A stretch of DNA of 64,000 nucleotides, from the NCBI GenBank assembly GCA_013180625.2, contig SNVD02013097.1, positions 1 through 64,000 of the forward strand. Direction: 5' to 3'. Below, in pieces: positions 1,080 to 54,400 of the stretch. The DNA is from Boswellia sacra. Its lineage: Eukaryota; Streptophyta; Magnoliopsida; Sapindales; Burseraceae. Position 1 is the first letter of the stretch. Each line of letters begins with the position of its first letter. A program made the translations under genes and the position numbers. A model generated the notes under the pieces. The model made no database searches. It saw only the letters and a program-made list of their open reading frames with translations, and had not been told where the DNA came from.

Positions 1080-1149
1080 TTTGAAAGGTAAAAGAATGCA
1101 CGATTTTTGTTTGGGTTACAGTTTTTAGGGAACTAAAAAACCGACTTAA

Positions 1150-1470
1150 TTAGTCACGGAGTACCGTATCCGCCACTTAACCGGGAAGTAAAATAAAACA
1201 CGTAAAAGAAAATAAAAGCAAAAACAGAAAATAAAGTAAAAATTATAGGACAAACATATAATAAAAGCAAGACAATGAGATAAAGAAAGCAAAAATAAAG
1301 TTAAGATATGGTACATATAGATGATAGAAACAAAGACAAAGTCAAGATATGGGGTAGATAAATAATAAAAGCAAGGCAATGAGATAATAAAAACAAAAAT
1401 AAAATCAAGATATGGTACAAAAGTCAAGATATGGTACAAAAGTCAAGATATGGTACAGATAGATGAGACA
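1150..1470. repeat. A-rich tandem repeats downstream of pol
   Basis: The phrase tcaagatatggtaca recurs at least four times. The last three copies sit in a 20-bp unit (aaaagtcaagatatggtaca). A longer unit of about 105 bp containing 'gcaaggcaatgagata' is present twice. The block lies just past the integrase stop codon at 1483 on the minus strand and is probably part of the retrotransposon's 3' non-coding region. Confidence 0.7.
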
Positions 1471-1482
1471 GATAGAACCTGA

Positions 1483-5203: not shown

Positions 5204-5248
5204 GGGAAGATTAATCTTAACTTGTTTTAAGTGTTCTAGAATCTCACC

Positions 5249-6886: not shown

Positions 6887-7019
6887 ACATCACTCACAAT
6901 TTGTCTCTCTTTTTGTTTTTTTTTGTTTTTTTTTTTTACACAAGAAAGTTCTCAAATAAAGTCAAAAAGCAATAAGATAACAAAAGTTAGAGAGAATAAT
7001 AACAACAATAATAATAAAA

Positions 7020-17358: not shown

Positions 17359-20887
<3,529 letters not shown>

Positions 20888-22710: not shown

Positions 22711-22929
22711 GTTCTTACAAATTGTATAAATAAAATGATTATTAACATATAATATTTTAAACTAAATGCATGCTCCCATTATACATATTGTTAACTAATA
22801 ACAAATGCTTAATAAACGGGTTGCGTTACTTTGATTTTTATCGATTAGGTTTCCTTCCCGTTTCCAATTTTCAGTGAATTAGAATTAGGTTTCAATTTTA
22901 GGAAAATTGAAAAAATGGACACAATTACG

Positions 22930-23255
22930 TATGCCTTGTGTCGAGTGATGGATTATGTCTGTGTCGAGTGTCGGATAATGTCGGATTCATAATCCGACAC
23001 TCGGTATGTCTTGTGTCGAGTGTCGGATTATGTTTCTGTAGTGTCGGATTATGTCGAATTCATAATCCGACACTCGGTTTGCCTTGTGTCGAGTGTCGGA
23101 TTATGTCGGATTCATAATCCGACACTCGGTTTACCTTGTGTCGAGTGTCGGATAATGTCGGATTCATAATCCCACACTTGGTATGTCTTGTGTCAAGTGT
23201 TAGATTATGTCTGTGTCGAGTGTCGGATTATGTCTGTGTTGAGTGCCGAGTTTCG
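22930..23255. repeat. Hairpin-forming tandem repeat
   Basis: Four inverted repeats occur in a row. Arms cgagtgtcggatWatg and cataatccgacactcg (16 nt) enclose a seven-base spacer, at 22965-23003, 23041-23073 (shortened), 23090-23128 and 23142-23180. The later copies are 52 bases apart. Half units without a partner arm flank the array on both sides. The arms are perfect or nearly perfect, so the strands could form cruciforms or a multi-stem RNA. Confidence 0.9.
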
Positions 23256-26859: not shown

Positions 26860-27225
26860 AGCTTGGGGAAAGTCCTCCCTTCTATTCTTTAGTTAATAGT
26901 CATCTCAGGGAAAGTTCTTGTCATATCCATTAGTTAACAGTCATCTCCAGGAAAGTCCTTGCGCTATCCTTTATTTAACAGTCATCTCAAAGAAAGTCTT
27001 TGCCTTATCCTATATTTAACAGACATCTCAAGGAAAGTCATTACCCTATCCTATATTTAACGATCATCTCCAGGAAAGTCCTTGCCCTATCTTTTAATAG
27101 CAATTCATCTCAAGGAAAGTCCTTACCCTGTCCTTTAATTAGCTACCATCTCAAGGAGAGTCCTTACCCTATCCTTTAGTTAGCTATCATCTTAAGAAAA
27201 GTCCTTACCTTGTCCTTTGGTTAGG
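26860..27225. repeat. 41-bp tandem repeat, eight copies
   Basis: The block catctcaaggaaagtcctta recurs with a period of 40-42 bases. Copies begin at 26901, 26942, 26983, 27024, 27064, 27106, 27147 and 27188. Between copies lies ccctatcctttagttaaca-like sequence. Copies differ by a few bases each, so the array is not recent. Confidence 0.88.
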
Positions 27226-29176: not shown

Positions 29177-32100
29177 TCATATGCCTAAAAGTACGTAATA
29201 GAGGAGGGTTATTGGCAAGGAAACTAGCATCCCGAAGATAACCCTGCAAAGAAATCAAGAATAGTCTTGCATCAGGATTGGAGACCGTTCAATGGTCAAA
29301 ATCAAATTATTATATTAGAATTCAGCAGGTATTGTTGGAGTTATCAACTTATTACAGGAGAAAGATTTTGTATATCTATGATCTTGAGAAGAAATCAAGT
29401 TAAGAGTATAACTGCGAGCTGTGAAATATTTACACTACCTTGACAGCCTGCAGAAGTCTAAAGTGTTCTGTCAATATATGATTATGGTCACTAAATAAAA
29501 GAAAGGCAAATAAGTTTTTTCAGTCACAAATCCATAATTATGCCCTATTAGTTGTGCCTCCACATTACCAAAATCTATGATTTCCTTTTCCTAAAGTTCC
29601 CACTCCCAGGATTTATGCGAAGCTAAAGCAAAGTAGCTTTCTCAGGATTGTGAAGTCACATATCAGATTACACAACTACTGAAACCAGTATGCTATTCCA
29701 TGTTATAGATTTTAACCGATAAAGAAATCTATGAATTCTTCCAGGCAGTCTCGATTCTAACTTACCCAGTACTCAAAATATCAGGATGCAGCCCATACTC
29801 CCTGGCAAAGACAAATGGTACAATCCCTTGAGGAAGAGCTGCCTGAAGTTCAGTAATTACAAAATGTCAAGCCTTTATAAAATGTGTAGTTGCAAATGTG
29901 CATGTTGTATGCACATATTTATACCTGTACTATGGCAGCATGGAGCTTAGCATTTTTCAATCCAACGCCAAGGGATGCAGCGGCCATTATTATGGGGCCA
30001 CAGATGAACCGGATCACCATCCCCATTGTTGCCCTTTTGGTGCCACAAGCAATGATCCGGGGCTGAAGGGCCATGAACAAACCTGCAAATTTAGCAATAT
30101 CAGTCCTAACACAATACCATTTGCGTAATTCAAATCAAAACCAACTAAATTGAATGAATATTGAAGAACAATTCAGGACTAGAACTTTCAGGTGTCTGTA
30201 ACGTGATAATCATTATTAATGCTGCTCATTGACATTAATCTTCCTGGCAAACCATGTGACTTATTGCACTATGTCTCCTAGTAAGAAATATCATTAATTA
30301 TGTGAAGAGAGCAGGGAAAGGAATACCTAAACTGAACATGGCCATCCCAAGCCCTGCATCCGAAATTATTTTGATCGAATATTTCACCAAACTGGGCATC
30401 CCCACATTCCATCTGTTCAAAAAACGAAGAAATCTTCACGTGAATATCAAGGATATAAAGCGAATGCAGCAAAATATGTACTAGTAATATTGCAAACAAT
30501 GAACTCACTTGAATGAGATTAGAGACCAAAGAAGGCCTAAAACACTTGAGTATGTGTTTGGATTGCGGGAAAGTTTTCTTCCAACTACAGTGAGTATGAG
30601 CCTCATCATGACGAATGCACGTGGCATTTTCTGTTCTACTGCTTCCCCGTATTCTGCTTCCTCTTCCACTGGAACTTTTGAATTGTCTCTGAAGCTGATT
30701 TCTTTCTCTGAAAAATTAACGAGAAAACTCAATCATTTGGTTGCTTTTTATAATGTAATCAAATTCATGAAATTTAATTACTGGCTTAAATATTTATTAA
30801 AACAAATAAATAAATATCAAAATATGTAATAAATTAAAGCTTAGGTTTCTATTAATGTGGAAGCCTACTTTCTAGGATAGATGCAAAAAGAGAGAGAAAA
30901 AAAATTGTGAAGGTCAACCTCTAAACGATAAAGTGGAATGATTGATGTGAAATTATTGGCCGACCATGATTTGGTGTGTTACTATTAAATAATAACTTTA
31001 ATTTATTAGATTCTTTACTAGGAATGCCAAATAGGGAATTATTTTATGTATTCAACCTAACCCCTATCATTACACACGTGCTCTAAGCTAATGATGTTAT
31101 CTATCAATTAAGGCCCTGACACTAGCGAAAAGTTTGGTTAGGATTCAAAATTAAGATTATTTTGACAATGTAAATTTGGCCACTTGTCTTTGTCTCCTTA
31201 AAAAATTTTATGAGGAAACTTAAGACAAAAGACACCAAAATTGTTAAATTATTACTCTCTAAATTTTTCGACTACATGTGTCTCGTGTCTAATTATAGAT
31301 GTATAATAAAACAAGATTTTCGAGATCTCAACAACAAACATATGCCACGGGAGAGGACAGATACTAACTCTATTATTACAAAAAGCATTCTAAAGTTGAT
31401 ATTACTTCAAGTGGCATCATTCTTGAGAATTTGTTTTCTATTTCATAATTAAATTGGAAGAAAATTTTGGAGAGAAATTAATAAAAAAATTGGAAAAAAA
31501 AATGGATTTTCTGTAGAGCCCCGTTATTCTAGCAAATTATTGAAAAAATTATGAAAATGGGTAGCATGATAACAGCTAAAACTAACGATGATTGATGCAA
31601 TGGGGCCACCGAATTCCTTCTAAACAAAATCAAAATTAACATATTATTGTTAGTTAATTCGGTTAAAATAAGACGTCACCAAACAAGATCTTGTGAACGT
31701 GTCAGATTCAGACAATAGTGTTCTTTTCCTTGCTTATGCAATCCGTACACTCGACACAGCTGAAAAAAGCTGCATCTTCGCTTCATGTCTCACGCTTCAT
31801 TTCTTGCAGATTTTTTTTAATATTTTATTTTAATATCAAAAACTCAATCTAAAAGTAACTTTTTTTCTTGTAATTAGTTATAATTAATTTTTATTAGAAT
31901 TAATTTGTTAATGTTTGTTATGACTGTTTATCGTTAAATTTTGTTTCTATTTTTGTGACGGCAAAACGACAACGTATGTGAGGAAATGGTAATGAACTTA
32001 CCGGCAACTTCCTTGGACCCTTGTCTGTCTCCTTGGTACTTCCCAGGAGACTCCCACACCATTTTCCCGCCAGGAACCACCGGCGACGGTTGCCGCAACA

Positions 32101-33324
32101 CCTTGCCGGAGACCGGGGACCGTGCCCAGGTCGGAGTATTCGTTGTCATGACAGCGATGGTCTCCATTTCGTTGAAGTTGGAGGCGCGTGGAGTGGGCTG
32201 GAGGGAGTAGGCGTCGGAGGAGGCGTAGCCGGACAACCTGGGGCTGGTGGCGGAGCCCCAGAAGACGATTTCGTTGTTGCCGTTGTAATGGTACTCATGC
32301 AACGGGGCCGGAGTGTTGATGGAGAAGATTTCCGCGTTGGAGAGGTTGGAAGCCCTGGGCGTGAGAATGGAGGATGATAGGACCGAGTCTGGGGCGGATG
32401 ACGTGGACCGTCTGATGCGGACGCGGATGCCGCCGTTAGCATCTGCTTCTGACTCCGTCCTGATAGGGTCACGGCCGTCGAGGGAGATGACGTCGTTGTC
32501 AAGCTCGAACTTGGTGATGGAGGCAGCTGTAGGGCCAGGGAACTGAGTTTGGATCAAGAGAGTCGCTGCTCTATATTCAAAGAGAAACAGCAAAAGCGTG
32601 TACCTGCAGAAAAAAAAAATTAAAATGTTTTTGTTGTTCTTCTTTTTATTATTTTCTATGCGTTTTGAGTTTGTTTTTAATATAAAGTTTGCTTTTCCAC
32701 AGGAAAAATTAAGTTTTCTTTTCGGCTAACAAGGAGGCAGCGGTAATAATATTAATATCTTTGTAATTTGTTTTCAAAATTTTCAGCTCCATTCTGCTAA
32801 AAGAGAAACAACCCATTAAAGCTTGCAAAAACCTGACAACAGTAAGAAAATAAAACTAGATAAAAATTAAGAAAAAGTTTTGTGATAATATTATACCAGA
32901 TGATGCATTGGAGAACAACTAGCTGCACCATGAGACTCTGAGTGAACCCTCCATACATGGCGTCGAGCAAAGGGATGCCCATAACGAGCGTGTTAGGCAA
33001 AGTAGCGAGTGAGAAAAGCGTGATAAGCCAATCCAAGCCTCCGTTGAGAAAGATAGCCCACACTGAGAGCAGGAGAAGGACGGCAACTTTGGACAAAGTA
33101 TCTGCCAATATGAACATGGTATCCATTTGGTAAGGATTGTTCTGAGCTATGAAATGGAAAGACAAAACGGGAACGGCAAAGACAGCAACAAATCTGTTGA
33201 TGCCGGAGCACTGGTCCGGCGTGAAGATTCTCCACCACTTCACGGACGCATATGCCACCAGCATTGCAAAGTACAAAGGCACCAGCGCACACATCACCTT
33301 GTAGAAATCATCTCCAGTTATCAT
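29177..33324 (-). CDS. PIN6: Auxin efflux carrier, PIN6 type, seven exons
   Basis: Membrane carrier that exports indole-3-acetic acid; PIN6 acts at the endoplasmic reticulum and plasma membrane. Exons from the start: 33324-32897, 32603-32002, 30707-30509, 30412-30327, 30082-29925, 29842-29766 and 29243-29177. They total 1617 nt (538 residues), all GT-AG, with the frame open throughout. Residues 1-160 hold the N-terminal helices ([33 protein letters not shown]). A hydrophilic loop of about 220 residues follows, with two TPRASN motifs ([14 protein letters not shown] and [13 protein letters not shown]), the known kinase-site context. The C-terminal helices begin at [10 protein letters not shown] and include [17 protein letters not shown]. 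The loop is longer than in PIN5/PIN8 and shorter than in PIN1/3/7. With AEKEISFRD this points to PIN6. Confidence 0.94.
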
Positions 33325-33430
33325 CTTTAATTTTCTTCTCCTCTGCTGCTCTCTGATCTGATATTATGATCAGATGAGTTTGGTTTTGTGTACACTGATA
33401 TGAGCTGTGGAGAATGCATAGGGTTGTGTG

Positions 33431-38223: not shown

Positions 38224-39757
38224 ATTATATTTTTTTTTGTCAAAAGAAGTTGATAATGACTTCTAATATATTTAACTATATATATGTCTGTGTGTGTTTT
38301 AAAAACAATTTAAACCAGACAAACATGCATTTAATTTATTAAGGATAGTTTGTTATGTTTTATCAATTTTTTTAGTACGGATATATCTCTATAACAATGG
38401 TATATATCTTTATAACAATTAATTATTATATCATCAGAGATACAATTCTTACATTATTTGAGTTGCGTGCCAATCTTGTACCAATTATTAATTCAAATTT
38501 TTTTTTTTTTGCTTGTCTATATACACAATACCTTCCATCTTTGAATTAGAATCAAAATAGTCCTATTACCTTCACTATTTCAAATTTATTTATGAAGTTT
38601 ACCATTAGTAATTCAATGTATTCAGTTTTAATCATTTGAATAGATAGTCCAATAGATCTGATTTTATTTATGATCACAATATTAGTAAAAATAATATTTT
38701 CAAATGTCATCTTCTACAATATTATTGCATCATTTACTTATTATCTTGTTCTTGTTACATACAATTGATTTTAACTATACTAAATAAAATATAAAAATAA
38801 GTCAAAAAAGTACCAACCAGGCCGAATAAAAAGTATCAAATATTTTAGCTAATAAGTGATGTATATATATTAAATCAAACCAATGACTTAATTTAGAAAA
38901 ATAAACTCCATTCAATCAATTAAATGTCTTTTGATTCATAATCTACATTTAAAAAAATATAATAGCAACCAAAGATTCAAAATTTTTATTAGTATGTCAA
39001 TTTAATACAAAAAAGATATTGATATAACATACAAAATTTTTTAAAATGAAAGAATTATGAATATAGAAAACATTCCTGAAAACAAAAAGGGCAAAGATGG
39101 AAAGTTGAAGTGAGATAAGATGAGGAGAGAAAAGTTAAAAGTTTACTGGGAGGGGGAGAAGTGGCAAAGATGATGGGACACTGGGAAAGAATACTGAAAA
39201 GTGGGGAGTGTTTGTCTTTAAATATGACGCAACGACCTGTCGTATTTGCTTTGTTTTATAGAGTTGACAAGGAAACAACATGTGGGCATGCTGTGGCCCC
39301 CACACCCACCTGATCCGGTGGCGACGCGTGCATCTTCTCTTCGGCCCCACCTTTCTCTTCTCTTCCTCATCATCCGTTCCTTTGTCTGGTCAATAGTGCA
39401 ATAGTCAATAATACTACTGTTTCTTTACTACCTTCTGAACTGGGCCCTCTATGGGCCTTTCTCAATTCCCCTCTCAGGCTCCTCCTGTCCCGCTAGTGTT
39501 ATTGTCCGAGCACTTAAAAACCTGTATGTCATGATTCGATTCACGCAAGTCATTTGCGTTGGACTGTAGAATACTGTTTATATTGCATCAAACACTCTAC
39601 TAGAGAGTGTCGAAAAGGGTTATAATATATAAGTTTATTTTTTAATTTACTTCTTAAATTTGATCTATTTTCGTAATTCGTTCTTTTTCTTTTCCGTATT
39701 TTCTAATGTTTTTTGTGTTAAAATATCTCCATAAGCCACCTTAGATGCTGTTTTTTA
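38224..39757. other. Intergenic DNA left of the CACTA element
   Basis: AT-rich. A G/C-richer patch at 39130-39370 has no recognisable gene. Confidence 0.5.
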
Positions 39758-39760
39758 TTA

Positions 39761-39774
39761 CACTACAGGAAATG
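39761..39774 (+). repeat. Left terminal inverted repeat of the CACTA element
   Basis: cactacaggaaatg. Pairs with the right end with one substitution and one extra A. A short subterminal block (acgacgggc, acggcgggcc) follows at 39797-39845. Confidence 0.92.
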
Positions 39775-39879
39775 TAGGCTTTTACTGCACCTATCTACGA
39801 CGGGCGTGTAAAAGTGAAGTAAAAAAAAAACTTTACGGCGGGCCGTTAGGCCCGAAGAAATCATTTGCTAATTGCCTTT

Positions 39880-40277
39880 CCCTCCTCTCTGTGTCTAATT
39901 CCATTTCCCTCCTCTCTCTCCCTAATTCGCAATCCCTAATTTCCCAAATTCTCTCTCCCTAATTTCCCTCCTCATCTCATCTGTCTCTCCCTCTAATTTC
40001 CTAATTGTCTCCATCGCTGTTGCTCCCTCTGTCTCGGTCGGCGCTCAGTCACTCTCTCTCGTCTCCGTCTGCCTCCATCGATGTCACTGCCTCTGTCTCC
40101 GTCGTCGCTCAGTCACCCTCCGTCGTCGCTCAGTCACCCTCCGTCGCCGCTCAGTCACCCTCTCTCGTCTTTACCTCTCGCTATTGCTGTCGCTGCCTCT
40201 GTCTCCGTCGACGACTCAATCACGCTCTGTCGTCTCCATCTTCATCTCACATTTACAGGTATCTCTCACTCTCTATT

Positions 40278-40320
<43 letters not shown>

Positions 40321-40330
40321 ATCAATTCAT
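39880..40330. repeat. CT-rich block with 24-bp repeats and (CT)n
   Basis: Pyrimidine-rich. About four copies of a unit containing cgtcgtcgctcagtcaccctc occur at 40025-40165, and a pure (CT)n run of about 34 bases at 40280-40314. The Ser/Leu-rich open frames here follow from the simple sequence. It may be the leader or promoter region of the element's genes. Confidence 0.8.
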
Positions 40331-40846
40331 CTCACATTTCTGCCTTTGTGTTAAGTTGTTGAGTCCAAAAATTAGGAACAAAAGTGCCAGAGTTTAAATT
40401 TAAACTCTAATATATTGAGAAAAGCTCAGCGGACTTTTTAATTTTTTATAGACTTTTTTTTTTAATTGATAATTGATTCCATGAATGGGTAATTTCTAAC
40501 TAATGAAGCTAATCCAGGATGAATCGATCTAAGTTTGGTCAAGATATCCAGAAAGGCAATTGCGTCCGCATTGGCTTTAATTTATTTCAATGACTTTTTC
40601 TCCCTATCCAAACTAGTAATCGTCCCAAAAACTAATTTAAAATGTAATTAGGTTAACAAATTTTCATGTGCATGGGCTTACACATTTGTATCACTATCAT
40701 TGATGTAAGTAACATAACAGATCAACCAAACTCAATGACTCATTATATTTTAGCAAGTTTGAGAAATTAATGATCAAGGCCTTTATTTGTAGAGGCCAAA
40801 ATCCTAACTAGCAAGGATATTTAATTAATCAAATATCTTTATTTAT

Positions 40847-42740
40847 AGAGGTATTGCATTTGCTGCTGTTTTCATCAATATATCTGTTGAGAACTTTGCC
40901 GGCTGGAAGTACACGTTAACTTTTTCTATAATACAAAAATCATATTTTGCTGGTTTTTTGTTGTACATATTGATAAACTTGGCTCTAGTTTTTTCTTCGA
41001 TATATATCATCACTCAATTTACACCAGCAACAGCAGGGTCTGGTATTCCTGAGATTAAGGGTTACTTAAATGGTAAGTTGCAATTGTTGATCTATTTTAT
41101 AGTATATGTTCCATGTGTTATAGGTAATGAGAATTGATTGCCACTTAAACTTGCAGAAGTTGACATTCCTGGTATCCTTCTTTTCAGAACCTTGATTGGA
41201 AAGGTGTGTTGGAACTTCTTGGCTTGCTGTTATTGTTGCACCAGGGTATCAGGATTCCCAATTTGAATTTAGGGTGCTTTATCCAATTGCACTTTAGAGA
41301 TACCAATCAATAAAGCTAGCAAATCACTTCTAAGAACAAAATAATTTGTAATAATCAACCCGCAATTAATGTGGCAAAGACTAGACCAAATGAAACAAAT
41401 AGCAAAAGTCAATAGCTTTGATTACAATCAAGAAACTGAAAAACAACTGTTGAATGAATAGCAATTAGTTCGAACCTAGCAGCTGCCACGAACTGTGAGG
41501 AGAATCTATCCGAGGACTTATTTATGGTTCCCAAGATTTTTGGATGATGAATGGGCAATTATTGAAGAAAGACTTGTGAAATTATCGTGGGAGGGAAAGA
41601 GAAAGTATGTGGAGCATTCTTATAAAGGGCCATAGAGAAGAAATGAGTAGAGCAATTAGATTAGGGAAACTGAGAGAACCAGAGGTGAGTGAGAAAATAA
41701 GAGGAAAGGAGGAACTTGCTGGACGTGAATTGTTTAAATTTGTCCTAACTAACCAGTCTCTAGTTGTAGAATTGTATATCTATATGAGAATCTAGAAGTC
41801 CTTACCTTATTGGAATCCAGCAGGAAAGTAATTTAAATCCTTTGTCAAAAAACTAATTAAAGATTTGAAAACCTAATAACTAAGATATCATTTTTTTTTG
41901 GGCTCTAAATGCTTCAATTGATTCTTATCTTTGTGATATGCAGATATTTGGAAGCATTGGTTCAGTTGGAGGTGGTCTAGCTTTAGGCAAAGAAGGGCCT
42001 CTTGTTCACACTAGTGCATGTATTACTTCTTTGCTTGGACAGGTAAGGATCTGTTACATAAAATTAGTCGAATTGCAAGAACTCAGATTAAATTGCAGAA
42101 ATTTCGTTGCAGTTAAGTCATTTAATTGATAAGTTTTTAAGTTTTTGAAAACAACAACTTACTATTCTTCTTAAATGTTTTGAGAAGACTTTCAGTTGTT
42201 CCATTGTTGCAACTAATAGTATCATGGCTGTAATGTGGGAAGTTCCAATAGAGTATAATGTAATGATTTTTACGGTCTTTAATCAATTCACAATGCATCA
42301 TATGGGCATAGTCGTTTCTAGGAATTTTTAAGCATGCTTTTGTTGAAATTTATGTTTGAAGACATCTCTGTATCAGTTTAGAGCAGTTTGCATATACATT
42401 TTATTAAATTTACTTTCTCTTAACTAAATCTTTTTTCATGTAATGTTTTAGGGTGGATCCACAAAATATCATCTAAGCTCTAGGTGGCTACAGGTTTTCA
42501 AGAGTGATCGGGATCGCCGTGATCTTGTGAGTAACTTTTTGCATTTTGCAAGTCAATAACCTGAAAACTGGACCTTTGGAGATAGGGATATAAGCATTTG
42601 ACTTATTTCTTTTAATTGATCTTATTTTTCCTTTTTATAATGTTTTGACAGGTAAACTGTGGGTGTGCGGCTGGAGCTGCTGCTGCTTTTAGAGCGCCAG
42701 TTGGTGGTGTCTTATTTGCATTGGAAGACGTTACATCATG
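40847..42740 (+). pseudogene. Captured fragment of a CLC-d-type chloride channel/antiporter gene, five exons with introns
   Basis: CLC-d is an anion channel/transporter of the trans-Golgi network. Five consecutive exons match its N-terminal membrane core: 40847-41072 (VFINISVENFAGWKY...TAGSGIPEIKGYLN), 41157-41203 (VDIPGILLFRTLIGK), 41944-42042 (FGSIGSVGGGLALGKEGPLV), 42452-42526 (GGSTKYHLSSRW) and 42652-42740 (CGCAAGAAAAFRAPVGG). Both anion-pathway motifs, GSGIPE and GKEGP, are present. Splice sites are GT-AG and the frame runs through all five exons without a stop. The first exon edge is approximate. Upstream exons and everything after VTSW (about four fifths of the protein) are missing, so it cannot encode a channel. 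It lies wholly inside the CACTA element. Confidence 0.9.
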
Positions 42741-43238
42741 GTAACACATTTGCTTTGCTGATTATCTACTTGTTATAATAGAAATGTTTCTTTTACTGTT
42801 TTAACTGCCTAGATGCTTTACACCTGGCCATTTAAGTTTTTAAACATGGTCTCTGGGAACATGTTTCACAGTACCTGATCAGTTTATTTATAGAGGCCAA
42901 AATCCTAACTAGCAATAACTAGCAAGGATATTTATTTATAGAGGCCAAAATCCTAACTTTATAATAGCTTTTAACAACAGTTTCCCTCAATATTTAATTA
43001 ATTAAAAGTGAAGGATATGAGAAAAAGAGAAGTGGTCAACAAACTCACAGAAAGTGTTTCAGTAACTGATCAGCTCTTAACTTTTCATTAGGCCCCCCAT
43101 CAAGACCAACTCCTCAAACTCCAAAAACAGATTACATTTAAATTAGATTTTTGTTTTGAAACTGTTTTCTCAATTGTTGTTTCACTTCAATTCCATCATA
43201 AATTACTTTTTGTTACAGTGATATCATCCACATAGCAG

Positions 43239-43350
43239 ATTGAGGCTGATATCATTTACCAGCATCTCCATATCCTAGATTGTAGAGCAGCTTCAGAGAA
43301 AACAAATTTGGTTGATCGACATAGAACACAATCTGCATCCATGACTAGAG
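43239..43350 (+). other. Exon-like segment of unknown origin
   Basis: 112 nt bounded by catagcag and aggtaagc, good acceptor and donor sequences. A 37-codon open frame (IEADIIYQHLHILDCRAASE...) is closed by a stop just before the acceptor, as expected of a true exon. I do not recognise the protein. It does not continue the CLC-d fragment and could be a second captured gene piece or a transposon leader exon. Confidence 0.4.
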
Positions 43351-43935
43351 GTAAGCTTCACCAGTTCCTATTTATGATGTTTTAAGTTAGATTGAAGTGT
43401 TATTCATATGCTGTTTGAGACTATTAATTTTGTTTTAATGATGTGTTGTTTTATGAGGAATAAAATTGATCTGATTTGTTTTTGCATTATAACATTCACA
43501 AGGCATGAACCTCCAATTGATGACTTTCCATTCTTCCTAAGTTATTCATGTTATACTCCGTAGTTACAATCCTTGTTTTTTTTTTTTGGTTAAAGATGCA
43601 AACTAGTCCTCCATCTAGATGAAAAAACACCTATAAAATTACAATTTAAATTGAAGAAACACAGTAATTGAAAATAAGAACATATAAACCAAAAATTTTG
43701 CTAGTTAAATAGTCCACTCAACCCAAGCCCACAAAACCATCCCACTAATAAAACCAGCCCATTAATGACTAGCCTAGAAAACAATATCCACCACTGAATC
43801 TAGTCCACCACACCAGCCCACCAATGCCATCTCAATACCTTAACTAAATAACTTATTAAATAAATTTAATTTCAACTCACTACCTAAATGAATTATTTAT
43901 ATGAATTACTTTTGTTTTATTGAAGGAAAGTAGGC

Positions 43936-46576
43936 ATGGACAAGAGTTGGATTGACTTGGGAGATAGATTTTCAAAGCCGTATGTAGATGGGGTTAATGC
44001 ATTTCTAGATTTTGCATTTGACAACGTCATTGGTGGCACTAGAATTTACTGTCTATGTAAGAAGTGTTTCAATCGGTATCTTTTCAGTAGGGACATAGTG
44101 AAAGACCATTTAATATTCAATGGATTTCTTCCTAAGTACAAAAAGTGGACACTACATGGTGAACCATATACACCTACAGAGTCCAATCAAAATGCTGAGA
44201 CTCAACATCCTGAGTTTGGTTGGGATTCCATGGGTGATGATATGGTCGGAATGATACATGATGCTATGGGAATTCCGAATATGGATTTTGGTGAAGGTAG
44301 TAGCTAGTACTCATTTAGATAACGATGTTGGTGCGAATATGGATGAGGAAACTAAAGGCTTTCTTAAAATGCTTGAAGATGCCAATTGTCCTTTATATCC
44401 GGGTTGTGAAAACTTTACTTCTCTTTCTTTTGTTGTTCGTCTCTTAAACATGAAAATGTTATGTGGATGGACAGACACATCAATGACAATGCTATTGAAA
44501 TTTTTGAAAGAAGTATTTCCCGAAGAAGCAAAAATTCCTCCCTTCTACTATGAGGCTAAAAAAATAACTGCATCGTTAGGATTTACATATAAGACTTGGG
44601 ATGCATGTCCTAACAATTGTATGTTATTTAGAAATGAACATGAAAACCTTCATAGTTGTGCAATTTGTCATACCTCTCGATATAAACAGTTCGATGGGTC
44701 AAATACTATATCAACTTCAGAGGTAAAATTACCTGCAAAACAAGTACGTTACTTTCCATTAGTTCTAAGATTGCAAAGGTTGTTCATGCCTACAAAAACT
44801 GCTTCTCTTATGCGATGACATGTAGAGGGTCGAATTAATGATGGTGTGTTAAGACATCCTGCTGATAGTCCTACTTGGAAAACCTTTGATGAAAAATACC
44901 CAAGTTTTGCTATTGAATGTCGTAATGTGAGACTTGGATTGGCTGCAGATGGTTTTAATCCTTTTAGGACTATGTCTATAGCTCATAGTACATGGCCAAT
45001 GGTATTAATACCGTATAATTTGCCACCATGGTTGTGCATGAAACAAACATTTTTCATGTTGTCTATGCTTATAGATGGTCCAAAAGGCCCAGGAAATAAA
45101 ATTGATGTCTATTTACAACCATTGATTGAAGAATTGAATGATTTGTGGAATGAAGGTGTAGTTACTTATGATGCATCACGTCAGCAATTGTTTAAGTTAC
45201 ATGCAGCTCTTTTGTGGACTATTAATGACTTTCCAACTTATGCTAACTTGTCGGGTTGGAGTACTAAATGGGAGAAAGCATGTCCTTGTTGTTCCATGAA
45301 TACAACTTTTCAGTGGTTACATCATAGTAGGAAGTTTTGTTATTTGGGTCATCATCAATTTTTACCCATTAGTCATAGATTTAGGAGAGATAAAGTCTCT
45401 TTCAATGGTCAAAGAGACTTTTCATCTGCTCCAACTCAGTTGACTGGATCTGATGTGAAACAACAAGTGCAAAATGTACTTACGGAATATAGAATGGAAG
45501 ATCTTCATAAAAGATGGAGAAAAGATTTTGAGATGATGAATCGTGGAAACGCTTGGAAGAAGAAAAACATTTTCTTTGAATTACCATATTGGGAGCATAA
45601 TTTAATTCGACATAATCTTGATGTCATGCATGTTGAGAAGAATGTTTGTGATAATATACTTTGGACATTGTTAGGGGATCCTAAAAAGTCTAAAGACAAT
45701 TTAAGGGCTCGACAGGACATGCATCAAATGGAAATAAGGAAACCATTGCATCCCCAATATAGGGGGAATCAGAAAGCATACTTGCCTCCTGCATGCTTTT
45801 CAATGAACAAAGAAAATAAAGTAGTCTTCCTAAATGTGTTGAAGCGAGTCAAGGTGCCAGATGGTTATGCATCAAATATTTCTCGCCGTGTGCACATAAA
45901 AGAGCGCAGCATTTGGGGTCTTAAAAGTCATGATAATCACATATTGATACAACAATTGCTTCTTCTTGCTGCATGTAGAGCATTGCCTAAAAATGTTGTC
46001 GGAACATTGATTGAGGTTGCTAACTTTTTTAGGCAATTGTGCTCCAAAGTGAATACACATGAAGACTTAAGGAATATTCAAAAGCGTGTTGTACTAACTC
46101 TATGCCATTTGGAGAAAATTTTTCCACCTTCATTCTTTGATGTGATGGAGCATTTGCCTGGACATCTTGCTGAAGAGGCATTGATTGGTGGACCTGTACA
46201 ATTCTGATGGATGTATCCGATTGAGAGGTATTACATCCTATGGATAATGCTTTTTTTTTTATATATATAGTATACATGAATGAATTCACTTACACTAGAT
46301 TCTTGAAATTATAGGTACTTGTTAACTTTGAAGAATTATGTTCGTAATCGTGCACATCCTTAGGCTTCTATTGCTAAAGGATACTTGATGGAGGAGTGCA
46401 CCAATTTTTGTGCATGATATCTTGATGAAGTTGAAACTAAAGTTAATCTAGCACCTAGGAACAAGGATGGTACTTCAAAAAAAGGGGTGAAATTTACTCT
46501 TGACAACGTTACTTGGGTTCAGGCGCATAGATATGTGCTAGTTAATTCCTCAATAATCGATCCATTTCGAGAGTAA
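43936..46576 (+). pseudogene. CACTA transposase (TNPD / tnp2 type), broken
   Basis: Encodes the element's main transposase, which cuts at the CACTA ends. 43936-44307 is the transposase-associated N-terminal domain (MDKSWIDLGDRFSKPYVDGV, CLCKKCFNRYLF). Then 44258-44818 and 44846-46207 hold the tnp2 catalytic region (DSPTWKTFDEKYPSFA, MLIDGPKGPGNKIDVY, KWEKACPCCSMNT, NLDVMHVEKNVCDNIL). A DUF4218-type end follows (DVMEHLPGHLAEEALIGGP), resuming near 46315 with YLLTLKNYVRNRAHP. Breaks: a frameshift near 44290, a stop at 44817-44819 where a Trp is expected, and stops near 46362 and 46415. Functional protein is unlikely. Confidence 0.9.
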
Positions 46577-46848
46577 GTCATGCACAATTGGAAATCCTAT
46601 TTCGTCATCTACTTTATTGTGAACATTTTTCATAATATCTTGTTTACGTTTTCATTTCATGGTTTTCTTTTACAAAGGGAGCATATCAACATACTCTCTC
46701 AACAACTTCCTCGTGCTTCAAGTCATCAAATTCAGAAAGAACACAACTCAAAATTTCATAAGTGGTTTAAAAACCATGTAAGCTTTCTTACTTCAATTCA
46801 ACTCTTGTCATACTACTATTGAGTACTAACACTAGTGGGTTTCTATAG

Positions 46849-47556
46849 GTGGAAACTTTGCAACATTCCCCAAATGTAACATTGCCTGAAGAAATTATAC
46901 ACTTAGCTAATGGCCTCAAACCAATTGCACGACGCTTCAAATGTTACGTTGTCAGTGGTTTTAAATTTCGTACCAAAGATATTGACAATAACAGAACCTC
47001 CCAAAATTCTGGTGTTGTTTTGAAGGTTGATACAATGAGCTATGCCAGTGCGAAGGATAGAAATCCACGTTTAGGCAGTGTAACATTTCATGGAGTGTTA
47101 AGAGATATAATTGAAATTCGTTATGTGAACGAGTTGAAATTTGTGTTGTTCAAGTGTGATTGGGTCGATGATAGGGTCGGAAAGAAGCTTGATGAATTTA
47201 ACTTCACAATGGTTAATTTTAACCATCTATTATATAAATTCAATCATGAAGACGATGAGCCTCTCATTCTAGCGAATCAAGCAGAACAAGTTTGTTATGT
47301 CCAAGATCCTGTAGAAGAAGATTGGCATATAGTTCTTAAGATGACTGTGAGAGATTCATTCAATCTTTATTCAATCAAGAACTATGACCATATGGTAAAA
47401 AGTGTGCCACAAGTTGAGTTGTATGCAGAACAAGAACTAGATGAAAGAGAATTTGTTCGTGAAGAAGATGTTACTTGGGTTAGGCAAGGAGTTGATGGAA
47501 CCACAGTTGACATCAACGGTCTAGACGGTGATGAAGAGATGGATGATGTTGAATGA
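46849..47556 (+). CDS. DUF4216-domain segment of the CACTA transposase
   Basis: An uninterrupted stretch ending in a stop at 47556. It holds the domain that follows DUF4218 in plant tnp2 transposases: FKCYVVSGFKFRTKDIDN, YASAKDRNPRLGSVTFHGVL, FVLFKCDWVD and FNLYSIKNYDHM. It is preceded by an intron-like junction (ttctataggtg at 46850), so it is probably the last exon of the broken transposase rather than a separate gene. The acidic tail (DGDEEMDDVE) is typical. Confidence 0.8.
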   Translation: METLQHSPNVTLPEEIIHLANGLKPIARRFKCYVVSGFKFRTKDIDNNRTSQNSGVVLKVDTMSYASAKDRNPRLGSVTFHGVLRDIIEIRYVNELKFVLFKCDWVDDRVGKKLDEFNFTMVNFNHLLYKFNHEDDEPLILANQAEQVCYVQDPVEEDWHIVLKMTVRDSFNLYSIKNYDHMVKSVPQVELYAEQELDEREFVREEDVTWVRQGVDGTTVDINGLDGDEEMDDVE

Positions 47557-47753
47557 AGGTGTATATGATGTTTCGTATATATTAATGAAAAGCTTTCTTA
47601 CTTTAACATTATTTGCCTGTCATACATTATATGTGCATCAAACATTTATGGTTTCATAGACAAATGATATTTGATCTGTGTCATGTATTATTGTAATGGT
47701 TAATATATTATATATAAGGTTAGTATTTTCTAATGTTAATATATTTTTTGCAG

Positions 47754-49511
47754 CTGACTATGGTGCCAAAGAGACTTAGAGATGACTCTATGGAAAGTGC
47801 ACTACGAAGAGAGGCAGCATCTCGAAGACAATCATCTTCATCTTCCCAATCTCAGATGAATGCGGGAGATCAAGGTTTGTAGATAAAATGTAATATTTGT
47901 GCATAAATATTCTAATTTTACCTCGGTGTCAAACTAATTTCATATGCTTAGGTGAGTCATCGCGGGTACCAAAAGGTCGGGGCGCTGCTCGTGGTAATGC
48001 GGAATGGGGCTCAGGGCAACCGTTACATGTTGATTTCAACAGTACATGGCAGCCAATTGGTCCAAATAAAGAGACGTTTACATCACAACTTGGCATTATA
48101 GCTAGGAATGGGTCAATGGCTCCATTGACTTATACTAGTTGGCATGCCATGCCTGAGCACAAATTAGATGCCATTTGGAAAGAAGTGAAGGTATTGCATT
48201 TACATCTAATTGATAAATTGAAATATATTTAGCTTAACTACACTAATCCATTATATTTTCTGTAAATGTAGGACAATACGGATGTTCCAGATGAGTACAG
48301 ACCGCATTGTTTAAAAGCAATGGGAGTACTCTGGAGGGATTAGAAGGCTCGTGTAAAGAGAGACTTTTACAAGCCTTATTCGACGGATGAAGCACATTTA
48401 GCCTTTACTCCTCTTAAAATTACTGAAGAGCATTGGAGGATTTTGGTCGCTTATTGGAGCAGTGAGGGAGCTCAAGTAAGTAATCAAAATTATGGTTAAC
48501 ATAATCGTTTTAACGAAATCATCCTAACAAATCAGATATGTATAAACTATATATTTATTGGTTTGTTTTGGCTCTTCATAATTACAGATTCAGGCAGAGA
48601 GAAACAATGCAAATCGTGCCCATTAATTTGCGCTTCATAGGACTGGACGCACTTCTTTCGCAAAAAAGAGAGAAGAGGTAAGTTTTAACAACATCTAAAT
48701 TCATATGAATTGTTTGAGATTTTGCAATGGTAGTTAATACGGTTTATTTGTAGCTTTCTTCATTTGTAATTGCAAACTAATAATTCTTTTCTTTATCAAG
48801 ATGTCAAAGAGTGGAGAAAAAACTGATCGCATCAGTGTGTTTATTAAGACTAGAACTACAAGTAGTGGAGATGTGGTTGATAATGAGAGTGGCGAAATAA
48901 TTGTACGTTTTTTAACTTAACTTATTTCGTATTACATTTCGTATGAAATTGATTGCACGATCCTCTTTATTACCATTTGATTTGTTGTCATCATTTTGTA
49001 GAGCCAATTAAGAGAAGGAATGTCTAGAATACCTGATGATCAACAAACAGATGCAGCGGCAGAGCGAGTATTTCGTGATGTAATGGGACGTGATCATCGT
49101 GGTTATGCCCGCACATATGGCCACGGTCCATCCCCATCCATTATTAAAAGTCACTGCTCTTCTCAACCTGTTGATGTGGAGAAATTGTATCAAGAGTTGC
49201 ATGAAATGCGGGTGGAGAACAAGGAACTGAAGGACTACAATACCCAGCTGTACAACTTTCTGCAACAGAAATTTCCAGACATCGAAGAGCAGCTGCCACC
49301 ACCTGTGGGACCTCAGGTTTTTACGTAACTTTAACTTGATGTTCCTTTCTCACAAATGACACATGAAAAAATCGGACTTGATGATGAACTATTTAGGACT
49401 AAAAGTTTTAAAATGTCTTAGGCTTCAGTTTCGGATGCTTCCAGTGCACACCGAAGTCGCGTCAACGCGAACGCCGCAACAACAAATGAAGAGGAGAATG
49501 AGGAGAATTAG
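47754..49511 (+). pseudogene. Second CACTA gene (TNPA-like, plant transposase PF03004 type), with stops
   Basis: Several exons can be followed: 47754-47874 (MVPKRLRDDSMES), 47952-48189 (FNSTWQPIGPNKETFTSQLG, SWHAMPEHKLDAIWKEVK), 48272-48475 (VPDEYRPHCLKAMGVLWRD, then KRDFYKPYSTDEAHLAF), a short exon near 48588, 48801-48903, 49003-49316, and a last exon ending NEEENEEN with a stop at 49511. In En/Spm-type elements the second product binds subterminal repeats and aids transposition. Stops fall near 48343 and 48625. The C-terminal exon with a coiled-coil-like VEKLYQELHEMRVENKELKD is duplicated at 50.3 kb. Confidence 0.75.
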
Positions 49512-51484
49512 GTATATATGAAGTTATTTATCATTACTCAGTAATAAACAAATTTTGGCATGTAATATTTATCTAAACTTCTCTAATAAACTTAGTAATA
49601 GTAAGACATCTAATTATTACATTTTATTTGTGCAGGTTTGTTTTCACATGACAACTTCAATGGGAATAAGACTTTTAGACATATTTTATAGTTCTAGAAT
49701 TCTATTATTGTTGAGATTGCAAATAAACTTGGTATTCTTATGTTGTATGTGAATGTATAACTTATTAATTTATGTGTATGTAAATATACTTTGATGTTGT
49801 ACTCTTATTTTTTATTGGAATATCATTTTGTTGGTTGATGTATTCATATGATGAATTATATTGAAAATATGGTTACAGGTGAAAATACAGTTTTAGGCTC
49901 GGATGTTATAAAATTACAAATAGGCCCTGAAAGTACTTCCCTTTTTTATTGCGGGCTAAAAACCGTGGTAAACCGAAACAAGCACTTTTTACCGCGAGCT
50001 TTTAAATATTACAAATTGAACAATGTTTACGGCAGGCCATAGCCCGCGATTTATAATTTAACGACGGGCCATAAGCCTGCAGTATAACATCTGCATCGCG
50101 GGCCCCTACGCCCGCCGTAAAAAAAGTTCCACCCCACCACGAATCTTTACGGCGGGCTTTTGGCCAGCGATAAAACAGTTTTTACCGCGGTAAAAAGTGA
50201 AATTATGATTTACGTCGCCATTTGATTTGTTGTTATCATTTTGTAGAGCCAATTAAGAGAAGGAATGCCTAGAATACCTGATGATCAACACAGATGCAGC
50301 GGCAGAGCGAGTATTTCGTGATGTAATGAGACGTGATCATCGTGGTTATGCCCACACATATGGCCACGGTCCATCCCCATCCACTATTAAAAGTCACTGC
50401 TCTTCTCAACCTGTTGATGTGGAGAAATTGCATCAAGAGTTGCATGAAATGCGGGTGGAGAACAAAGAACTGAAGGACTACAATACCCAGCTGTACAACT
50501 TTCTGCAACAGAAATTTCCAGACATCGAAGAGCAGCTGCCACCACCTGTGGGACCTCAGGTTTTTACTTAACTTTAATTTGATGTTCCTTTCTCACAAAT
50601 GACACATGAAAAAATCGGACTTGATGATGAACTATTTAGGACTAAAAGTTTTAAAATGCCTTAGGCTTCAGTTCCGGATGCTTCTAGTGCACACCGAAGT
50701 CGCGTCAACGCGAACGCCGCAATAACAAATGAAGAGGAGAATGAGGAGAATTAGGTATATATGAAGTTATTTATCATTACTCAGTAATAAACAAATTTTG
50801 GCATGTAATATTTATCTAAACTTCTCTAATAAACTTAGTAATAGTAAGACATCTAATTATTACATTTTATTTGTGCAGGTTTGTTTTCACATGACAACTT
50901 CAATGGGAATAAGACTTTTAGACATATTTTATAGTTCTAGAATTCTATTATTGTTGAGATTGCAAATAGACTTGGTATTCTTATGTTGTATGTGAATGTA
51001 TAACTTATTAATTTATGTGTATGTAAATATACTTTGATGTTGTACTCTTATTTTTTATTGGAATATCATTTTGTTGGTTGATGTATTCATATGATGAATT
51101 ATATTGAAAATATGGTTACAGGTGAAAATACAGTTATGGCCCCGGATTTTATAAAATTACAAATAGGCCCTGAAAGTACTTCCCTTTTTTACTGCGGGCT
51201 AAAAACTGTGGTAAACCGAAACAAGCACTTTTTACCGCGGGCTACAAATTGAACAACGTTTACGACGGGCCATAGCCCACGGTTTATAATTTAACGGCGG
51301 GCCACAAGCCCGCAGTATAACATCTGCACCGCGGGCCCCTACGACCGCCGTAAAAAATTAATGGCCCGCCTTAAAAAAAGTTTCACCCCACCACGAATCT
51401 TTACGATGGGCTTCTGGCCCGCAGTAAAACAATTTTTACCGCGGGCTAAAACCGCAGTAAAAAGTAAAATTATTATTTACGTCG
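48973..51484 (+). repeat. Tandem duplication of about 1.25 kb at the CACTA 3' end
   Basis: 48973-50217 and 50218-51484 are near-identical copies. Each has the last coding exons of the second gene, the same 3' flank and a block of subterminal repeats. The junction joins tttacgtcg to ccatttgatttgttg. Copy 2 lacks two bases (gatcaacacag against gatcaacaaacag, near 50285), which shifts its coding frame. It also has a slightly longer repeat block. Confidence 0.92.
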
Positions 51485-51560
51485 TCATTTTATACGGCGG
51501 GCTTGAATCGCGGTAGGCCCACCGTATAAGTCCTTTTACCGTGGTTTTGGCCCGCGATAA
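49905..51560. repeat. Right subterminal repeats of the CACTA element
   Basis: Many direct and inverted copies of a motif around ttaccgcgggct and ttacggcgggc occur in two clusters (about 49945-50205 and 51190-51560), separated by the duplicated coding piece. In CACTA elements such motifs bind the TNPA-type protein. Confidence 0.88.
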
Positions 51561-51566
51561 AAGAGC

Positions 51567-51581
51567 CATTTTCTTGTAGTG
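51567..51581 (-). repeat. Right terminal inverted repeat of the CACTA element
   Basis: Ends cattttcttgtagtg; the reverse complement cactacaagaaaatg matches the left end. Followed at once by the target duplication tta. Confidence 0.92.
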
Positions 51582-51584
51582 TTA

Positions 51585-54400
51585 TCAAGTGAGTTTGTTG
51601 TATTTGAAAAGTGTTGTTTTGCGATTTTTGGAGCATCAAGGTGCTCTTGTTTTGGATAATGGTAATGGTGCTGCCACGCATTTCTTATTATGGTTTGGAT
51701 AATTTGTGTTGATTAATATATGCATATATTAAATAAGGGTATCGCAATATATACAAGAAACTCTCTCTTTTACATCATCCTTTCAGATATTTGACAAACA
51801 CAAAATATGCTCATTTGAGAATATTATTCTTCTCTTTCTTCTTTATCCTTTCACTTTTTTTTTTTAAATAATTCTTTTTTACTGCCCTCTCGCGCCCATA
51901 TCAAGTGACAAGGAAACTCATCCCCTAAAACCATAAATACCCTTCTTTGTTGTCACTTTGATTGAGGAATATTCAAGGTTCTCAACTTCACCTTCGTTTG
52001 TATTTAGCGTTTGGAAATAGACATGTAACGCTGTGTTGCATAAATACGGTAAGAAAAACAGAAAGTACTTGTCAAAATCCATTCCAACATTTGGTCTTTG
52101 TGCTTGTTAGGCATTCGTTTCATCACATGGGCTTCCAATCACTTGATATTGAAGTTCAAGATGCTGAAGTTGTTTTTAGTATGAGTGTAGCGCTGGTTAC
52201 TAACCTCTCTTACTCCGATAATCCTCCGTAATCACGTTGTTAATTATATATTTCTAAGGTTTATCTGCATGACGAATGTTTTGTGTTACATAGGATTCTA
52301 ATAATTCCATTAATGCTTTAAATGTTCATGTTTTTAATTTATAAGTTTTCTTGTTGCAATTTGATGAGTTAAAAAAATGTACAAAGAATTTGAAAATGTG
52401 AAGACTTAGAGAGAAGTGGAAGAACAATGTTTTATTATACTTTTTTAATCCTTAAGATGGTGCTTACTAATAAATTAAATGGGTTTAAATAAACCTCTTC
52501 CAATTTGCCAATATATGGAAATAGAAGTGTACAGTGGTTTAGGCTTGGACGCATTATACTCAAATATTTATTTAAATTTTTAAGTCAGAATGATTGATAT
52601 TAGTGTATAAGTGTTTAAGTGTTAGGTATAATGTTCAAATCCTTCATATATTGTATCAATCTGGATAATTAATTTACTGAATTGACATGTCTCGGAGGAT
52701 GGAGAGATATGACTCTAAAAGTTAAGAAAATTCCAAAGTAAAAAGGATTAATAAAGGGATTGCTATAGCATCCTAAAGATAATGATTCAATGAATGTTTA
52801 TAATTATGTGGAGGTGGTGACTTTGGGTTGATACCAAGTCTCTTTCCAAGCATAGTTTCATTGATAAGAAGAAGCTGCGATAATGGCCTTGCATGTTCAA
52901 TCCAAAAAGATGTCATTTCTACTGCCATCTTGGAAATCAAAGCCTAGAAAAGTTGGCTCCAAATTCAATATCAATGTCTTTGATTGTTCCATTAACAAAG
53001 AGATTTGATTGAACTTTATCTGTGGAATGGTTTTCAATTAGTGTCTATCAACTCCGAATTCTAAGGCTACTTGTGTCAGTTGCCTGACCCATTTTATGGT
53101 CAATCCTGGCTGGCTAATATTGCAAACCCCAAGTCATTGTTGGTTCAAAAAGTCACCAAGTATATTGAGAAATTCACTTCATAATATGAAAAAGATGGGT
53201 GCCTGTAACTCTTGCTGAACAGAAAGTCATGTGTAATCATATCGCATTCTTGATTGAACCTCAGTGGCGCTTGCAAACAGGCATGCCCAATTGATGAGTG
53301 TTAGGATAATCTCTTATCGCAGAGTTGAGTCCCATAACTGGCTTCAGAAAATATGGTTAATGACTTCACCTTTCTATTTTGTGGTAGCCTCGCATATGTT
53401 GCCGCTTCCTGTATTGCTTGTCTAACTTGCTTTGCTTCTTTGGTTTTGTTTATTCTTCTAACCATTTTTGTTATTGTTTATTCATTAAAGTCATTCCAAG
53501 TTGTACAAAGTTTGACAATCTAAACCACCTGTCCGAGCTGTCTTTACCTTCAAATCTATTATATCAGAAAACCTGGAAAAGAAAACAGGACAAGCACACT
53601 GGAACTGAAATCAGCTAGTTGTCAATGTACTAGAATTGTATAAATATAATCTCAACAAAATGCCGTGAACAGCAATTGGATGTTAATTTTGCAAGTCGTC
53701 CAAATCCTGTTTTCTGTGCTGCATATTTTCTAATGCATTTTATATTCAATATTGATCACATATTCTATTTAAAATTCAAAATAATTTAAAATCAACCACA
53801 TATTCTTAAATTCAATTGAAAACAAAAACACAAGATTATAAAACGAACACACTCTAAGATACCATTTTAATAATGGTTAATAGAATATAGAAAAGGGTAG
53901 ATACTAAAGTTAATCTTTGTCAATTATTTTACCATATCTTTATTTGTTTCTCAATGTTCTGCTATGCTTCATCATCACACCTTTCAATTGATGCTTTTCC
54001 ATTATATTTGGAATACTTTGCTGAAAACATTGAAGTAGATGATGTAAAAAGGAAATTATGAATGCTCTATATTAGTGAAAAATTGGGTTGATATATTTAG
54101 AGGGGATAATTGATGGTTATATAAGGAGAATAATCTGACTAGCTGATGGTAAAAGTATAAAATCATCTCAACTTGCAAAAAACGAAAGTATGGATTCCAG
54201 CTTAAATTTCAAGTCATAGTTACAGTAACCTGTAAAAATATTCAACATGGAAGATGGAATTCTTATCCTGTCTATCATAATATTTTTTGTTGATTTGAAA
54301 AAAAAATACCACCTTGACTTGGACTTTTAAATTACTTCATAAACATCTCAGTTTTTATCTCTCTTTATCTTTACTATTAATATTAAACAAAAGATAAATC
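51585..54400. other. Intergenic DNA between the CACTA element and ADH1 copy B
   Basis: No gene recognised. Open frames at 51962-52231 and 53418-53618 lack motifs. A moderately GC-richer stretch at 52800-53300 may be an old gene relic but could not be assigned. Confidence 0.45.

Follow-up and report, generated by a model that had tools for sequence, protein, structure and literature searches.

CACTA element in the window

The DNA analysed here is a stretch of 64,000 nucleotides from Boswellia sacra (contig SNVD02013097.1, positions 1 to 64,000; contig C6413 in our numbering), which is called the window below. Positions 39761-51581 of the window are one single 11.8-kb transposon of the CACTA (EnSpm; tnp2-type) group with a TTA/TTA target duplication, and five exons of a CLC-d channel gene lie inside it (Table 1). 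Terminal inverted repeats starting with CACTA were present at both ends (CACTACAGGAAATG and CACTACAAGAAAATG).

The window's own genome (638.6 Mb, 7431 contigs) was searched with both ends of the element, very common words being omitted from the search. With the left end as query (39700-40849; 40 of 147 candidates scored), 35 of the 51 listed matches, the window itself included, began at query positions 54-63, which correspond to window positions 39753-39762. The first base of the element is query position 62, and these starts range from 8 bases upstream to 1 base downstream of 39761. With the right end (51300-51610; 40 of 736 candidates scored), 35 of the 39 main non-self rows stopped at query positions 281-288, or window positions 51580-51587. 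The last base of the element is query position 282, and the stops range from 1 base upstream to 6 bases downstream of 51581; 20 further short rows were left out of the count. Among the listed matches, 13 contigs carried both ends on the same strand and in the correct order. The spacing was 3.6-11.5 kb in 12 of them and 19 kb in C5362. The initial annotation of this DNA had proposed these ends with their TTA duplication, and had named as the weak point that they might belong to two different elements. Our results showed that both boundaries recur across the genome and belong to one element family, which rules out a chance pairing of two unrelated ends.

The transposase region was identified with Pfam. 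Transposase_21 matched over 213 of 213 profile positions (E 6.5e-100), DUF4218 matched partially (55 of 114 positions), and Transpos_assoc and DUF4216 were also found. When one intron was placed by eye, the transposase frame was broken by one frameshift near 44305 and by four in-frame stops; the initial annotation had likewise called the transposase broken. The open reading frames (ORFs) 47894-48229 and 49002-49325, searched unspliced for a TnpA-like second protein, gave no Pfam match. The annotated subterminal repeats exist as an array, but an uneven one: of 17 GCGGGC/GCCCGC motifs, the last 1.7 kb holds 15, the first 150 bp 1 and the middle 10 kb 1. The array is asymmetric and weak at the 5' end, and its motif-rich end coincides with a 1.24-kb tandem duplication.

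Captured CLC-d segment and its likely donor

The captured segment keeps GT..AG at all four complete CLC-d introns, and its spliced frame is open for 177 amino acids. The translation matched Pfam Voltage_CLC (2.1e-34) and, among solved structures, Arabidopsis CLC-a. The best 120 of 1795 protein matches were 85-90% identical, and those with names were largely plant CLC-d. The left breakpoint lies within about 3 bp of an exon start, the upstream intron being lost, and the right breakpoint falls inside the intron after exon 5. The fragment is not a complete gene with the distal pore part and the CBS domains, since it has 177 residues where the donor has about 796. The CLC pathway also has a distal part, with GxFxP and Tyr, that presumably falls outside the fragment.

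The likely donor is an intact CLC-d gene on contig C5997, which covers 796 of the 800 residues of a pistachio CLC-d query. When the genome was searched with this query (66 matches; 56 of 77 candidates scored), C5997 held the one ordinary CLC-d gene, and apart from the element copies the matches on other contigs were only 29-72% identical. For the parental segment, the top protein match was pistachio at 95%, a value that several unrelated plants among the 120 listed matches reached as well. The DNA shared between C5997 and window 39001-52500 is confined to 40849-42859, which rules out an ordinary collinear CLC-d locus in the window. Intron divergence between donor and window was 3.05%; methylation makes the element branches longer, and the age that this value would imply varies with the substitution rate of the plant.

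These results bear on most of what the initial annotation had claimed for the segment. A CLC-d segment with introns does sit inside the CACTA element, and the frame does run through five exons with intact splice sites. Recent capture, one of the two readings that it had suggested, agrees with the high identity to the donor and the low intron divergence. The parental gene, which it had proposed to seek by genome alignment, is intact on C5997, and the flanks of the fragment differ from that locus. The captured stretch is longer than had been given and reaches 42859 in the next intron. Of the truncated protein with both pathway motifs that it had thought possible, GSGIPE and GKEGPLVH are present, but methionine is absent from the 177-residue frame, so that translation cannot begin from the CLC-d frame alone.

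Table 1. Features of the CACTA element and its captured cassette (window coordinates)
Feature	Position	Strand	Remarks
Target-site duplication TTA, left copy	39758..39760	.	Identical to TTA at 51582-51584
5' terminal inverted repeat CACTACAGGAAATGT	39761..39775	+	Element opens CACTACAGGAAATG
Family-specific leader region common to relatives	39868..40340	+	GT donor-like site after CATTTACAG at 40258; exon/intron reading by eye
Foreign cassette	40341..43248	+	Without similarity to cassettes of three other family members at same position
Cassette piece like C7415:251918-252259	40409..40752	+	94.8%; about 344 bp
Cassette piece like C2649:104780-104849	40751..40820	+	95.7%; about 70 bp
TTTATTTATAGAGG motif adjoining CLC-d on left	40838..40851	+	Also within 40782-40814, one change
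Captured CLC-d segment	40849..42859	+	96.8% to C5997:590618-592632, minus strand; 2.0 kb
CLC-d exon piece 1 (GSGIPE motif)	40850..41072	+	
CLC-d exon 2	41157..41203	+	
CLC-d exon 3 (GKEGPLVH motif)	41944..42042	+	
CLC-d exon 4	42452..42526	+	
CLC-d exon 5, donor site intact	42652..42740	+	
23 bp between CLC-d break and repeated motif	42860..42882	+	No source assigned
Two more TTTATTTATAGAGGCCAAAATCCTAAC motif copies (42883-42915, 42931-42958)	42883..42958	+	
Stretch 95% like C3581:120649-121138	42955..43439	+	C3581 is a family-like locus with different DNA on left
Element resumes	43249..43935	+	Common to five other loci, 93-97%
tnp2-type transposase pseudogene (Transpos_assoc, Transposase_21, part of DUF4218)	43936..46574	+	Pfam; one frameshift, four stops
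DUF4216 ORF	46849..47553	+	Pfam
Tandem duplication of 3' region, 1.24 kb (48973-50195 + 50218-51451)	48973..51451	+	94% identical; single in C6168 sister
3' terminal inverted repeat	51567..51581	-	CACTACAAGAAAATG on minus strand; plus-strand end ...CATTTTCTTGTAGTG
Target-site duplication TTA, right copy	51582..51584	.	Matches left copy

Patchwork cassette between leader and transposase

The CLC-d segment is one part of a patchwork cassette, which also holds the C7415-like and C2649-like pieces and reiterated short motifs. The repeated motif is found as TTTATTTRTAGAGGCCAAAATCCTAAC within the C2649-like piece; its first 14 bp stand directly before CLC-d, and two longer copies follow from 23 bp after it. 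The C3581 locus (L066, C3581:119901-121500) shares 42955-43519 with the window and has different DNA on the left. Inspected by eye, this left DNA has an open frame on the minus strand that ends in a stop and is possibly another host fragment.

Four cassettes between the leader and 43249 were compared (window, C4560, C5766 and C5388; E 1e-5, low-complexity filter on). At this threshold the window cassette showed no similarity to the other three, and the C4560 cassette as cut showed none to those of C5766 and C5388 as cut. The C5766 and C5388 cassettes have about 386 bp in common on their left side and 165 bp on their right. C4560, C5766 and C5388 also have about 167 bp in common just before 43249, outside the cut pieces of C5766 and C5388, and this DNA is absent from the window. 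Part of these three cassettes may be the family's own DNA. The C4560 cassette (L068, C4560:2401-6600) gave partial matches at many loci with abutting breakpoints (query 1-424, 556-1710, 1706-2074, 2070-2885 and 2998-3615). The C5766 cassette (L073, C5766:62091-65480; 40 of 77 candidates scored) was wholly or largely common to C6194, C6452, C3173, C2698, C6597 and C655, all of which have both ends, and it also had partial matches elsewhere.

Partial matches to other loci were thus found for the CLC-d, C4560 and C5766-group cassettes. Because these three and the C5388 cassette differ centrally at the same position, the family could have a standing capture site, in which the stretch from leader to transposase repeatedly gains host patchworks from several loci while the element goes on transposing. 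The family would then be a serial collector of gene fragments. We give this reading, taken as a whole, an even chance.

Sister and derived copies

A sister element with the same composite structure was found on contig C6168. It is 96% identical over 39898-47959 and 90-93% identical on to 51582, with nothing aligned beyond; its first 137 bp, including the 5' repeat, are replaced by unrelated sequence. Only 39898-51582 of the compared region 39001-52500 aligns, which rules out C6168 as an assembly duplicate or haplotig of the window. Between window and sister, the CLC-d segment differs at 62 of 2009 positions and the transposase ORF at 79 of 2632, and this equal divergence fits joint movement of the two. 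In C6168, a segment of about 319 bp like window 47630-47954 stands in tandem (about 3 copies, at reverse-complement positions of about 20600-21400 of L014+L011+L012+L015); it is single in the window copy.

Smaller CLC-d pieces were present in three further family loci (C3195, C550 and C5193). The genome search with 42741-42990 returned 12 rows (12 of 12 candidates scored). CLC-d was matched in the window, C6168, C3195, C550 (twice), C5193 and the donor, and the remaining 5 rows match just the repeated motif or 42955-42990. The matches in C3195 and at one C550 place extend past the donor breakpoint, to 42904, and so go back to the one capture event. An internal deletion is common to C5193 and the other C550 place. 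The C550 element (120072-123623) is 3.6 kb long with a GGA/GGA target duplication, and its comparison with the window element gave no match to the transposase region.

Probable footprint of methylation

In the two element copies, 34 private C-to-T/G-to-A changes were counted: 22 in CHG, 9 in CHH and 3 in CG context. Per site-branch this corresponds to 22/266 for CHG, 9/1074 for CHH and 3/72 for CG (CHG versus CHH, Fisher 6e-10). As a control, the donor was compared with the element state common to both copies: of their 19 C/T-type differences, 2 were at CHG. In the rest of the element, C/T-type differences per site between window and sister were commonest at CG in 4 of 6 other segments and were higher at CHG than at CHH in 6 of 6. 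Within the captured piece, window and sister have diverged by 5.26% in exons versus 2.30% in introns, and CHG sites were hit by 14 changes at 55 exonic sites versus 8 at 78 intronic sites (two branches).

The concentration of C-to-T changes at CHG would be an indirect footprint of transposon-type methylation. The simplest reading of the mutations is that methylation of the element copies may have come mostly after their separation; candidate changes common to both are few (8). Since these few changes are without CHG bias, the CLC-d cassette may have been mobile before the onset of CHG silencing.

Coding constraint

The substitutions were polarised on the donor, with two three-state codons and the deletion codon omitted from the counts. 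On the window branch, 10 changes are nonsynonymous, 2 are synonymous and none creates a stop. The C6168 branch has 10 nonsynonymous and 2 synonymous changes, together with 2 stops and a 1-bp deletion that shifts the frame. Under neutrality 22.5% of the changes would be synonymous, and 2 of 12 in the window fits this expectation (P 0.47); a ratio of nonsynonymous to synonymous rates (dN/dS) of 0.2 would yield so few synonymous changes with P 0.003. The chance that the frame stays unbroken after 12 changes is about 0.63. In addition, 36 plant CLC-d orthologues were picked for spread from the 120 listed protein matches. The fragment differs from them at 8 residues in columns that are invariant in all 36 (127 of 177 columns are invariant), and each of the orthologues has 0 or 1 change of its own at otherwise invariant columns.

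The coding constraint that the initial annotation had thought might be retained is therefore not upheld: the substitution pattern, the orthologue comparison and the broken sister all speak against it. With no sign of selection on it, the CLC-d segment seems to encode no conserved protein and to evolve neutrally, decaying like silenced transposon DNA.

Other features of the window

A retroelement-like block lies on the minus strand at 744-6889. It comprises gag with a zinc knuckle (5249-6886), reverse transcriptase and RNase H (2506-4002), a weak aspartyl protease slightly below the cut-off (4094-5245) and a small ORF (744-1112) that matches carlavirus C4 and viral nucleic-acid-binding families (E 1.4e-5 and 4.1e-5). 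Rfam snoR71 was found at 6276-6382 on the plus strand (59.6 bits, gathering 40), inside the gag ORF and on its opposite strand, which is an odd place for a snoRNA. Two sets of gene pieces are also on the minus strand: zinc-binding alcohol-dehydrogenase-like pieces at 17568-19141 (ADH_N and a sub-threshold ADH_zinc_N), and Mem_trans (auxin-efflux-carrier-like) pieces at 31934-33360, of which 32797-33360 is strong and 31934-32722 slightly below the cut-off. Tandem arrays of GTGTCGGAT-rich 23-73-bp units and of 41-bp units lie at 22929-23245 and 26867-27223. The tRNA scan of the window found 0 genes.

Discussion

We consider it probable that a CACTA element captured the CLC-d patchwork by interrupted gap repair, transposed, was silenced by CHG methylation and is now decaying neutrally. 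An element encoding its own transposase would have gained a patchwork of host sequence in the non-coding interval that separates its leader from the transposase ORF. The most likely route would be the repair of a break inside the element, which was interrupted while the polymerase switched templates; such aborted gap repair would be expected to leave behind filler drawn from more than one template, with short motifs repeated in it. The composite element then transposed at least once to give the window and C6168 copies, as their shared junctions and different flanks show, and internally deleted relatives carried bits of CLC-d elsewhere. Silencing of the copies by CHG-type DNA methylation, with neutral decay, may have followed; it is suggested indirectly by the mutation footprint. 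Chimeric transcripts or small RNAs from the CLC-d segment are possible in view of its sense orientation in the transposase unit and its usable splice sites.

Several points weigh against this account. In rice, synthesis-dependent repair after transposon excision inserts fillers of 1-123 bp, according to the excerpted text of PMC4423477. These are far below the 2.0-kb CLC-d segment, and for this reason the gap-repair mechanism is something that we infer. For the C7415 and C2649 pieces we assume the direction of copying; as very common words were skipped in the search, both could be repetitive. The family comparison takes in four cassettes rather than all copies. No empty or pre-capture allele was seen in the genome, and the target duplication of the C6168 sister is uncheckable because its 5' repeat is lost. 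Methylation is deduced from the mutations. The mutation spectrum of the neutral test was drawn from the changes of the same two branches; with a generic spectrum the number of stops per nonsynonymous change was similar (0.041).

Fusion of two neighbouring CACTA insertions that bracketed CLC-d, by tandem insertion and aberrant excision, is an unlikely route here, although it would take up long segments more easily than short-filler repair and has been proposed for Arabidopsis Pack-CACTA (PMC13317346, a review, as excerpted). The CLC-d segment is enclosed deep within a single element; a copy of one short motif stands near either edge, and the segment adjoins pieces that match other contigs, a patchwork that fusion explains less well. 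Three relatives have different cassettes at this internal position, which would require several fusions at one coordinate, and a comparison of 28 kb of the donor contig revealed no element sequence apart from the CLC-d match.

Slightly less likely still is that the fragment has been kept as a trans source of small RNAs against the parental CLC-d. Its 96.8% identity to the parent and the several element-borne pieces would suit such a role, and the CHG footprint is a hint that the copies are targets of the silencing machinery. But the parental gene remains intact, and the 2 of 19 C/T-type differences at CHG give no sign of methylation spreading onto it.

The CLC-d piece could also have come with another mobile element that inserted into the CACTA element, a Helitron or Pack-MULE for instance. 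A 14-bp direct repeat stands near both CLC-d edges, and the segment is flanked by two short inverted pairs rich in AT (40626-40648/43131-43153, 23 nt, 78%; 40820-40836/42990-43006, 17 nt, 94%). But the direct repeat occurs in further copies and has a match at a third locus, unlike a target duplication of fixed length. In both inverted pairs the right arm belongs to 42955-43439, which is present in C3581 without adjacent CLC-d, and so these pairs do not bound a nested element. Outside the family, the genome gave no complete independent element carrying this segment (12 of 12 candidates), in a comparison that included no systematic search for Helitron or MULE ends. Such an origin is very improbable. 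The least credible alternative is that the captured exons were exapted through a chimeric transcript into a constrained truncated membrane protein: 177 open codons, intact GT..AG sites and the same strand as the transposase would allow it, but the 10 nonsynonymous to 2 synonymous private changes (P 0.003 under a dN/dS of 0.2), the eight changes at invariant columns, the frame without methionine and the sister with two stops and a deletion all speak against it.

The capture can be traced within one genome, from the donor and the breakpoints through the filler templates to the sister, the deletion derivatives and the pattern of decay. The locus is a clean test case for gap repair with template switching versus fusion of neighbouring insertions as a route of CACTA capture. 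It serves equally to ask what becomes of captured exons, silencing with decay or reuse; for the protein, the answer here is decay. It is also a warning for annotation, since the open CLC-d-like frame could be called as a gene.

No printed case of CLC-d captured by a transposon was found in open-licence PMC full texts. Related systems are known, and the following comparisons draw on excerpts of the cited papers. Tgm-Express1 of soybean (5.7 kb; PMC1947982) carries five gene fragments, lies in an F3H intron and has proven chimeric transcripts. Both it and the window element are CACTA elements with host intron and exon pieces whose splice sites are kept. The pieces of Tgm-Express1 come from several host genes; unlike it, the window carrier still has a tnp2 transposase, though a broken one. 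In grapevine, Cactavine-5 (PMC2528002) has a transduplicated fragment of a PPR gene with coding and 3' untranslated sequence. The window element likewise has transduplicated host gene sequence and exists in more than one copy, but the gene differs.

The window element resembles Pack-CACTA and Pack-TYPE elements (PMC8903248, PMC13317346) in that an element with terminal inverted repeats moves captured gene pieces, sometimes from several loci. It has captured host coding DNA between its terminal inverted repeats, the CLC-d exons at 40850-42740. Pack-TYPE elements are non-autonomous and free of transposase sequence, whereas the window element keeps tnp2 sequence; the packFinder rule (PMC8903248) would class it as autonomous or derived from an autonomous element. 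The C550 derivative fits the Pack-TYPE description better.

A parallel in position is provided by CACTA elements of Chenopodium (PMC8978399), whose captured fragments are likewise found 5' of the first ORF; capture-prone regions are noted there and the mechanism of Rubin and Levy is cited. The capture in the window differs in that other genes are involved and in that donor, breakpoints, sisters, multi-source patchwork and mutation footprint are traced in one genome. Both the capture of genes by CACTA elements and its occurrence upstream of the first ORF have thus been published before, and the present case is an unusually well traced one.

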